Positions 51,264-53,446 of a DNA stretch of 64,000 nucleotides are shown here, piece after piece. Each line of letters opens with the position of its first letter. Positions within the stretch are counted from its first letter, which is position 1. Source of the DNA: Alphaproteobacteria bacterium. Lineage in GTDB: Bacteria; Pseudomonadota; Alphaproteobacteria; Rhizobiales; Rhizobiaceae. The position numbers and the translations under genes were made by a program. The DNA lies in assembly GCA_024742485.1 (NCBI GenBank), contig JANSYK010000002.1, positions 1,116,001 through 1,180,000 of the forward strand, given 5' to 3'. The notes under the pieces were generated by a model. That model made no database searches and was not told where the DNA came from. It saw nothing but the letters and a program-made list of their open reading frames with translations.

Positions 51264-52783
51264 ATTATCGGTTTGGGCCCTATCAAATCGATACCGGGCG
51301 GCTGGAATTGACCTGTTCAGATGAAGTGGTGCCGGTTCAGCCGCAGGTCTTTGCCTTGATGGTTTTTCTTCTCGAGAACCGTGACCGGGTGGTCTCGAAG
51401 GATGAGATCATCGAAAATGTCTGGCAGGGTCGCATCGTGGGCGATGGAACACTGAACGCGCGCATCAATGCCATTCGCCGTGCCTTGGGTGACGACGGGC
51501 AGACCCAGTCCATGATACGAACGATGCCCCGGCAGGGCTTTCGGTTTGTCGGTGAACTTTTGGATTCCGGATCAACATCGCAGGACAATAACGAACAGGA
51601 TGGTCGCGAACGAAAGCAGGCTTCGATCGCCGTTTTGCCGTTCGTGAACATCAGCGGCGACCAGGAGCAGGTCTATTTTGCAGACGGGCTCACCGAAGAT
51701 CTCATCACTGACCTATCCAAAATCCGCGACCTTTTCGTCATCGCCCGAAATTCGTCATTTTCCTACCGGAACTCTCCGAAGAATGTCTCGGAAATCGGAC
51801 GGGAACTGGGCGTTGCGAGCGTACTGGAAGGAAGTGTCAGGAAAGCGGGCAACCGCATCAGGATCAATGCACAATTGGTGGATGCAAAAACGGGTGGCCA
51901 TGTCTGGGCTGAGCGATACGACAGTGATGTTCAGGATATTTTCGAAGTCCAGGACGAAATCACGGCAAAGATCATTGCGGCGCTTCACATTAGTCTCACC
52001 GGCGCCACCGGTGGCGACAGAAGCACACACAGTGTTGAGGCCTACGAATTGAGCCTGAAGGGTCGTGCGAAATTTTTCATGTTTTCGCCGGAAACAAACG
52101 CCGAGTGCATTCACTTGCTGGACCAGGCGATCGCCATTGATCCATCCTTCTCGAATGCCTGGGCAGAACAGGTGTTTCCCTACCAAAGCGGCTGGTCATT
52201 TGCGTGGAACGGTTATGATGATGGCCTGAATATCGCAGAGGAAAAGGCGACGCGAGCAGTCGAACTCGGCCCCAATTCATCTTTGGCACACAGCAGGCTG
52301 GGTTGGGTCCAGACTTTTTTGCAAGAACCCAAACTTTCAATTCAGAGTTTCGAGCGGGCGCTCGAACTTGATGCAAACAATGCGGACACACATACTTGGT
52401 TTTGCGAAGCGCTCAATTATGCTGGCCAACCCCAGCGCGCATTGGAAATTGGGGAGAAATCCCTTCGCTTCGATCCGGTTGCACCACCAAATTGCCTGCA
52501 CCACATCGCCCACGCCTATTTTCTCATGGGAGAACTGGAAAAAGCGGCTGAATACGACCAAAGGGCGATCCGCATGGCGCCATCATTCCCGCCTGCCAGG
52601 ATTGTGATGTCCGCCATTCTTGTGGAAAGCGGCAGGATCGAAGAGGCAAGGGAGCAAATCGCCGATTTGCTCTCGATAGATCCCGGATACAATTTCTTGC
52701 GCTATGACGAACGCTATCCATATTATAGCGCCGAACATCGCGAGCGTATGAGTGCGGCGCTGAAAACTGCAGGACTTGCCTGA
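51260..52783 (+). CDS. CadC-type winged helix / TolB-like / TPR regulatory protein
   Basis: 507 residues from ATG 51260; a TTG at 51218 in the same frame is possible, but the ATG overlaps the stop of a 16-codon leader ORF. An OmpR/CadC-type winged helix fills about 1-97 (YRFGPYQIDTGRLEL, NRDRVVSKDEIIENVWQGR, RTMPRQGFRFVG). A TolB N-terminal-like domain (about 118-235; IAVLPFVNISGD, YFADGLTEDLITDLSKI, ASVLEGSVRKAGNRIRINAQ) and TPR repeats (about 250-500) follow. No membrane segment, unlike CadC itself. In Rhizobiales the TolB/TPR part is often joined to adenylate cyclase domains; here a separate membrane cyclase gene lies 660 bases downstream. Target genes are unknown. Confidence 0.88.
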   Translation: MNYRFGPYQIDTGRLELTCSDEVVPVQPQVFALMVFLLENRDRVVSKDEIIENVWQGRIVGDGTLNARINAIRRALGDDGQTQSMIRTMPRQGFRFVGELLDSGSTSQDNNEQDGRERKQASIAVLPFVNISGDQEQVYFADGLTEDLITDLSKIRDLFVIARNSSFSYRNSPKNVSEIGRELGVASVLEGSVRKAGNRIRINAQLVDAKTGGHVWAERYDSDVQDIFEVQDEITAKIIAALHISLTGATGGDRSTHSVEAYELSLKGRAKFFMFSPETNAECIHLLDQAIAIDPSFSNAWAEQVFPYQSGWSFAWNGYDDGLNIAEEKATRAVELGPNSSLAHSRLGWVQTFLQEPKLSIQSFERALELDANNADTHTWFCEALNYAGQPQRALEIGEKSLRFDPVAPPNCLHHIAHAYFLMGELEKAAEYDQRAIRMAPSFPPARIVMSAILVESGRIEEAREQIADLLSIDPGYNFLRYDERYPYYSAEHRERMSAALKTAGLA

Positions 52784-52895: not shown

Positions 52896-52970
52896 AGATA
52901 TCGGGATTCAAATGGTCCCGTTCCGCTGACGAACACAAATGATTGCCCGTCTGACAGGGCAAAATAAAAA

Positions 52971-52990
52971 GGGGGTGCCTGAGCACCCCC
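52971..52990 (-). terminator. intrinsic terminator of the 26-codon gene
   Basis: On the minus strand GGGGGTGC pairs perfectly with GCACCCCC around a TCAG loop, followed at once by TTTTTATTTT (52961-52970). This is a textbook intrinsic terminator, 48 bases past the stop of the 26-codon ORF. On the plus strand no T-run follows, so it serves the minus-strand transcript. Confidence 0.85.
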
Positions 52991-53038
52991 CGTGAGACCG
53001 GATAACACCGATTTCAGTCTGCTTGAGACAGTCAGGAT

Positions 53039-53119
53039 TCACGCGGTCGCCAGAGGCTGCTCCGATGTCCGCGAACATCCCTCAAATCGGGTGTTACTCC
53101 TGGTAAACTCACTCGACAT
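53039..53119 (-). CDS. 26-residue small protein with perfect Shine-Dalgarno element
   Basis: ATG 53119 to TGA 53039-53041 on the minus strand. The leader carries AGGAGGTGATC (53122-53132), complementary over 11 bases to the usual 16S rRNA 3' tail, with 7 bases between AGGAGG and the ATG. The product is hydrophilic (starts MSSEFTRSNTRFEG, then CSRTSEQPLATA), with one Cys, four Arg or so and no membrane segment. A matching intrinsic terminator follows, and a -10-like TATGAT (53155-53160) lies upstream, giving a transcript of about 180 bases. I know no family. Either a small protein or a dual-function small RNA; the gene lies alone in the gap 52784-53446. Confidence 0.6.
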   Translation of the reverse strand: MSSEFTRSNTRFEGCSRTSEQPLATA

Positions 53120-53446
53120 CTGATCACCTCCTCTCGTTGATTGAACACGAATCGATCATAACCTTCTCTTGAATGAACGGAAACCAAAATATTCGCGTGC
53201 CGATGGCCTGTGTAGACGCTTCATCCCATGGGCAGGAGATTGGGCAGGCGCTATTGAAGTTCCCATGTAGAAACAGATGTTTACGGGATCGTCTGACAGG
53301 ATTTGCGATGCCTTCACGCCGTCTTCACTGGGCTATCACAGGCGGTTCAAGCGATTTGATCGGCAGCGCCAGCGGAAACTGCTAAACTGAAATTGCCTCC
53401 CTTGCCGCTGCAATAACGAAGACAGTATCGGCAATCGGGCACAGGC

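Follow-up and report, generated by a model that had tools for sequence, protein, structure and literature searches.

A stand-alone alphaproteobacterial mini-gene related to the small RNA CC2171, with a conserved short reading frame and a drifting peptide

Introduction

The described RNA closest to the element considered here is the little-studied CC2171 of Caulobacter crescentus, which was reportedly described by Landt et al. in 2008. The family (RF01867) is typed as an sRNA gene in Rfam; its reading frame, its freely varying peptide and its stretch resembling the 16S rRNA tail (hereafter the mimic) are readings made in the present analysis. The literature consulted, mostly abstracts, describes neither a frame nor a mimic in CC2171, and an earlier remark may stand in the original description of that RNA. 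The R-scape-revised Rfam structure of CC2171 gains one more covarying pair (PMC11701678). A study of Mesorhizobium huakuii labels the candidate MH_s33 as RF01867/CC2171 and gives RNA-seq products for 34 of 35 non-riboswitch candidates, all but MH_s6 (PMC5596092); this CC2171 homologue is probably transcribed in that species.

Two other kinds of alphaproteobacterial RNA invite comparison. The rnTrpL/peTrpL RNA of Sinorhizobium (PMC10117765) and Pos19 of Rhodobacter are dual-function short RNAs with a translatable frame, and in this they are like the element described below. However, rnTrpL is the leaderless attenuator RNA of trpE (PMC10117765), whereas our element has an extended Shine-Dalgarno sequence (SD), no downstream gene in the window and no sign of selection on its peptide. 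The rhizobial anti-SD (CCUCCUCCC) sRNAs SmelA075 and SmelA099 (PMC3927594) share with it anti-SD-like C/U stretches; in those RNAs the stretch lies in hairpin loops, whereas here it lies inside the frame and opposite the element's own extended SD.

The element lies in a 64,000-nucleotide stretch of a Rhizobiaceae genome (contig JANSYK010000002.1), referred to here as the window. It is like CC2171 in its leader (CAAC..GAAAGGAGGUGAUCC), in the position of its start codon and in its terminator, and is of similar size.

Results

A complete mini-gene on the minus strand

A preliminary description of the window had proposed a self-contained transcript between two larger genes. Reading of the sequence bears this out: a complete minus-strand mini-gene runs from about 53148 to 52961, with an extended SD, a 26-codon frame and a terminator (Table 1). 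The TATGAT hexamer, 11-mer, ATG, 26 codons, TGA and 8-bp GC stem of that description are all present on this strand. Its spacing of 7 bases holds as the distance from the GGAGG core to the ATG; measured from the 11-mer it does not, as only 2 bases (AG) precede the ATG.

Table 1. Features of the mini-gene, in window coordinates
Feature	Sequence	Position	Strand	Remark
-35 candidate	TTTCCG	53183-53178	-	poor; read by eye
-10-like hexamer	TATGAT	53155..53160	-	read in sequence
Short 5' leader	GTGTTCAATCAACGAGAGGAGGTGATCAG	53120..53148	-	most conserved part of the family; 5' end assumed
Extended Shine-Dalgarno	GAGAGGAGGTGATC	53122..53135	-	complementary to an alphaproteobacterial 16S rRNA 3' end
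11-mer	AGGAGGTGATC	53132-53122	-	read in sequence
26-codon open frame	MSSEFTRSNTRFEGCSRTSEQPLATA	53039..53119	-	ATG at 53119, TGA 53041-53039
16S-tail mimic	GGAGCAGCCTCT	53052..53063	-	resembles 16S 3' end GGATCACCTCCT; can pair with the SD
Block directly ahead of terminator	TCTCACG	52991..52997	-	frequent in relatives
Intrinsic terminator, then T-rich tail	GGGGGGTGCTCAGGCACCCCCT	52970..52991	-	8 perfect stem pairs

A scan for sigma-70-type promoters detected none at the window locus. Among relatives, a -35 signal (TTG[ACG]) is found 45-54 nt upstream of GGAGG in 101 of 219, as compared with 9 shuffled, and a terminator-like hairpin follows in 61 of 64; in many copies from the window's order the terminator is preceded by a TCTCACG(G) block. 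The full window RNA folds better than its shuffles (z -3.2), with the predicted stems mainly 3' of the SD.

The neighbours are as first named: a divergent adenylate/guanylate cyclase (PF00211) on one side and, on the other, a convergent winged-helix/TPR regulator (Trans_reg_C plus TPR). Past the terminator, the next gene is convergent and ends at 52783, so no gene in the same direction follows directly. Among the 72 loci of relatives compared for their surroundings, a given neighbour cluster recurs at 7 at most; a four-locus cluster (L006, L038, L039 and L064) crosses families, at differing positions. With no downstream gene in the window and no widely shared neighbour in relatives, a leader peptide or attenuator was rejected. 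At one locus (L004:1742-1863, minus), Rfam finds the sRNA ar14, which we take to be of the same kind as the rhizobial anti-SD sRNAs, at 61.7 bits and above its cut-off, on the opposite strand and about 60 nt behind the element's terminator. It adjoins only this one of the 15 loci scanned.

Relation to CC2171

The element had been called unannotated, and this is true in that Rfam at its own cut-offs finds nothing in the window. It does not hold in a wider sense, in that the mini-gene is, by sequence comparison, a divergent homologue of the Caulobacter sRNA CC2171 (RF01867). Specifically, the window copy aligns with CC2171 over the same leader at 17.6 bits (E 0.07-0.2), below the gathering cut-off of 75, and because that cut-off is not reached we do not file it as a formal member. 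The cut-off is passed by loci from Methylobacterium tarhaniae (L223, 89.9 bits) and Brevundimonas nasdae (L240, 86.1 bits); the other six of these eight named loci match below it, with E up to 0.043. Among 12 further loci, eight score 29-54 bits (E up to 0.015) and two stand at 24 bits (E 0.23-0.25); the remaining two, L066 and the locus of the window itself (L037), are absent from the match list of this set.

On three other points the window copy agrees with CC2171. The loci grade from one side of the cut-off to the other, so that the window copy is connected to CC2171 by intermediates. The 5' block CAAC-N-GAAAGGAGGUGAUCC followed by NUG UC is present, the window reading CAATCAACGAGAGGAGGTGATCAGATGTC with two of the GAAAGGAGGUGAUCC positions differing. 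In addition, a 3' intrinsic terminator is found on the same RNA, although Rfam's alignment of the window did not use it. As we read the CC2171 consensus, it runs GAAAGGAGGUGAUCCA-GUG-UCU and continues into an open frame of about 22 codons.

Distribution of the family

As judged from sequence, conservation is the main evidence that the mini-gene exceeds chance. The counts that follow are not independent samples, because they come from related loci, many of which were retrieved with patterns that contain the SD. A blastn search of 41 genomes gave matches in 8, the window's own included (in one, G020, at two places, with the element only at L009), and a 20-base pattern with 18 fixed positions was found in 42 of 297 genomes of the order, again including the window's own, with none for the reversed control. 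A covariance model (R1) was built from 31 copies, the window's among them. In the family it has matches in 150 of 199 genomes, which represent 86 of 109 genera; in the class sample it has them in 74 of 289 genomes (E up to 0.01), where the weakest include false matches. Most genomes carry a single match. Within the family, 45 loci were inspected, three places twice, and the element was recognised by script in 44 and by eye in L342. In the window's own genus it is present by eye in 4 of 8 genomes (six R1 rows, two of them chance); the other four have no R1 match or, in G002 and G005 as judged by eye, chance matches only.

A scan of named genomes matched at least 117 stretches, and R1 matches 79 of the 80 of these loci supplied to it (E up to 0.1), missing L207. 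Titles are available for 80 of the 117 listed and include Mesorhizobium, Bradyrhizobium, Bosea, Methylobacterium, Ancylobacter, Sphingomonas, Novosphingobium, Ruegeria, Brevundimonas, Azospirillum and others; two of the 80 read Gemmatimonadetes (L176 and L207). Clade labels of rows without a listed title rest on peptide likeness. Outside the class, weak R1 matches occur in 12 genomes of other classes, and of six inspected five are not elements and one is. The latter (L289 in G712, from another class of the phylum) reads AAGGAGGTGATCATATG and has, by eye, an 18-codon frame and a terminator-like tail. One genome (G332) carries two differing copies, L109 and L111, one of MSHCH type and the other of MSHGSA type. 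A plasmid-borne gene was considered and rejected, with no match in 72,556 plasmid records.

The frame is kept and the peptide drifts

The proposal of an independent mini-gene with a translatable frame is upheld among the relatives. This was seen in a set of 106 elements, for which the script required ATG, GTG or TTG followed by TC, TT, CA or AA and accepted a frame of any length. Every one of them reaches a stop in frame 0 after 18-36 codons, whereas the other two frames close at 16-36 codons in 28 and 21 cases. The frame +2 control is partly inherited, in that a stop in this frame lies within the conserved block at the start codon. Two loci were left out of the set: L042, in which a leader of this kind precedes a frame of 56 codons, and L045, a chance match. 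When the first base of the start codon was left free, the 117 matches listed gave GTG 57 times, ATG 56 times, TTG 4 times and CTG never, so that all 117 begin with one of the three accepted codons. Frames usually span 14-36 codons across the family; three of the 117 listed fall outside this range, namely L183, which ends at a contig end, L247 (59 codons) and L260 (44 codons). The frames of L247 (Azospirillum sp. B21) and of L042 (G665) follow the same kind of leader and SD and by eye resemble a small exported protein.

Among 259 unique frames, which leave out those outside 10-40 codons, all three stop codons are used (138, 73 and 48 times). In the Sphingomonadales- and Rhodobacterales-type groups, set by their first residues, 47 of 49 frames have 18 codons. 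L017 has a single-base gap relative to L018-L023, yet keeps both motif and stop.

The peptide itself behaves differently. A small protein had been one of the options offered, with the expectation that third codon positions would vary while the peptide was kept. In 19 disjoint equal-length pairs (0.68-0.985 identical, codons 4 onward), changes are instead spread equally over codon positions 1, 2 and 3 (72, 57 and 60). Of the changed codons 32 are synonymous, where random placement would give 33.2 +- 4.4. The sample thus gives no sign of purifying selection on the peptide, and a small-protein gene was rejected on these codon statistics. Many rows begin with MSS and carry EQP(L/S) close to the end, and among relatives the EQPL codons are a motif that is also read in other frames (RSSL, SNL). 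Seven copies (L216, L226, L230, L234, L253, L275 and L280) are just 14 codons long and encode a nearly constant peptide that ends in KRCHLAGIAR, unlike the drifting peptides elsewhere; the first four are titled Bradyrhizobium, the last three were placed by peptide alone, and the codon sample lies outside these Bradyrhizobium-type rows.

The extended Shine-Dalgarno sequence

Against a 16S 3' end (CTGGATCACCTCCTTTCTAAGG) read in the relative G502 only, the window SD forms 11 contiguous Watson-Crick pairs, or 14 pairs with one G-U, and the predicted duplex reaches -26.4 kcal/mol in the window and -29.9 in the consensus, whereas an invented leader with an ordinary GGAG gives -6.4. A search of 12 genomes for the exact 16S tail located it in one, which was not the window's own, and a shorter form was likewise absent from the window's assembly; complementarity to the organism's own 16S is therefore assumed. 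The chance expectation for the 11-mer in the window is 0.04 occurrences. The sequence GGAGGTGATC occurs 24 times in the 6.87-Mb genome, and among the other 23 sites an ATG stands 0-2 nt behind it in three (L148, L153 and L156). The SD block varies little among model matches, with GGAAGG and GGTGGTC among its variants, and takes the forms GGAAGGTGATCC and GGTGGTCC in some genera of the window's family. In 4 of 71 loci inspected after the genus and class scans (L136 and L139-L141), the script found no SD.

A stretch resembling the 16S tail within the frame

Near the end of the frame lies the mimic, which reads GGAGCAGCCTCT, or GGATCGnnGCCTCC in other rows, and resembles GGATCACCTCCT. The motif GCARYCT occurs in 98 of the 259 unique frames against a shuffled mean of 3.15, whereas the reversed, complemented and scrambled motifs occur 5, 14 and 1 times. 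It ends 1-15 nt before the stop in 90 of the 98, and is divided 75/15/8 over the reading frames, two of which are clear and the third less so. Most rows of Sphingomonadales or Rhodobacterales type have a weak mimic or none, L180 being an exception.

Several calculations bear on whether the mimic pairs with the SD, with p-values that are optimistic because the sequences are related. In 99 representatives the SD x frame duplex averages -13.04 against -10.34 when shuffled (58 of 99 at p up to 0.1), and in 87 representatives drawn from the 117 matches listed, with frames limited to 10-40 codons, it averages -12.1 against -10.3 (32 of 87 at p up to 0.1). The only consensus pairs returned by RNAalifold join the SD to the mimic. 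These columns are paired in 95.1% of 185 cells as compared with 40-51% when slid by one, a control biased toward a structure that comes from the same alignment; the shuffled control of this column test was uninformative. Because the SD hardly varies, no two-sided changes are visible in these pairs. For the nascent window RNA, the expected number of SD:mimic pairs is 8.5 at 105 nt, 4.6 at 115 nt, 0.1-0.3 at 125-135 nt and 0 in the full RNA. Folds of whole molecules do not pair the SD significantly more than shuffles do (0.718 vs 0.683, p 0.10), and in the named set the SD finds as much complementarity behind the frame as within it (-11.8 vs -12.1, p 0.31). Neither the whole-molecule folds nor the named-set comparison supports a universal SD:mimic hairpin.

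Discussion

Taken together, sequence comparison establishes the gene, its leader, frame and terminator, the homology to CC2171, the drift of the peptide and, in the window's clade, the mimic. The explanation that we favour, and hold to be on balance probable, is that of a stand-alone CC2171-homologous mini-gene in which translation rather than the peptide matters, and whose RNA would adopt one of two states set by ribosome supply through SD:mimic pairing. With no ribosome on the RNA, the SD would pair with the mimic (in the window, as predicted, in the nascent RNA only). A 30S subunit would then displace this pairing and the frame would be translated; on termination, the ribosome would sit on or beside the mimic and keep the SD open for the next one. 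If a terminating ribosome holds the SD open in this way, then translation, not the peptide, would be the function, and the resulting RNA would be a two-state element reporting ribosome supply. In the least certain step, the C/U-rich mimic, freed or masked, might be a seed acting on the SDs of other mRNAs. A bolder formulation, which we offer tentatively and think rather unlikely, is that of an ancient RNA, widespread in alphaproteobacteria, in which both sides of the SD/anti-SD contact are present: an extended sequence that pairs with the 16S tail, and a copy of this tail at the site where its own ribosome terminates. Such an RNA would be a self-reading gauge of free ribosomes with the peptide as a by-product.

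It is worth considering how the same observations fare under other explanations. The element may be a usual trans-acting sRNA that is incidentally translated, its C/U-rich stretch being an anti-SD seed that blocks mRNAs and its frame serving only to protect or recycle the RNA. The Rfam typing of CC2171, the retention of the C/U motif in more than one reading frame, the terminator-like hairpin in 61 of 64 relatives and the anti-SD CCUCCUCCC loops of rhizobial sRNAs (PMC3927594) are consistent with this; however, neither the closing of the frame at 18-36 codons (106 of 106) nor the ATG, GTG or TTG start (117 of 117 listed) is required of a plain sRNA, and we regard this explanation as unlikely. 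Titration or parking of ribosomes, in which the long 16S complement would hold 30S subunits or slow their release and the short frame would free them at termination, gains from the 14 pairs, the predicted energies (-26.4 kcal/mol in the window, -29.9 for the consensus) and the low variation of the SD block. Such an RNA would need to be very abundant, and titration leaves the mimic unexplained, which makes this distinctly less probable.

A functional small protein or leader peptide appears very unlikely. The frame is kept, many rows have the MSS start and EQP(L/S) near the end, and the nearly constant 14-residue peptide in Bradyrhizobium-type rows lies outside the codon test; however, the 19 pairs have no synonymous excess, the EQPL codons recur in relatives as a motif read in other frames (RSSL, SNL), and a leader peptide would find no gene behind the window terminator to control and no widely shared neighbour. 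We give hardly any credence to an antisense or sponge RNA directed at anti-SD-bearing sRNAs or at precursor 16S rRNA, with the frame incidental. The SD stretch is complementary to the 16S tail and to CCUCC loops, and ar14 lies about 60 nt behind one element (L004), but ar14 adjoins just 1 of 15 loci scanned, and both start codon and frame are kept.

What appears to be new, as far as sequence can tell, is that a family catalogued as an sRNA can be re-read as a translated gene with no apparent selection on its peptide. Such a gene would be unusual, and the reading is directly testable. The element is found in three quarters of the family genomes and a quarter of the class genomes sampled, and is therefore open to study in model strains. 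The favoured explanation of a mini-gene whose translation matters also points to a possible RNA sensor of ribosome supply, acting through SD/anti-SD contact.
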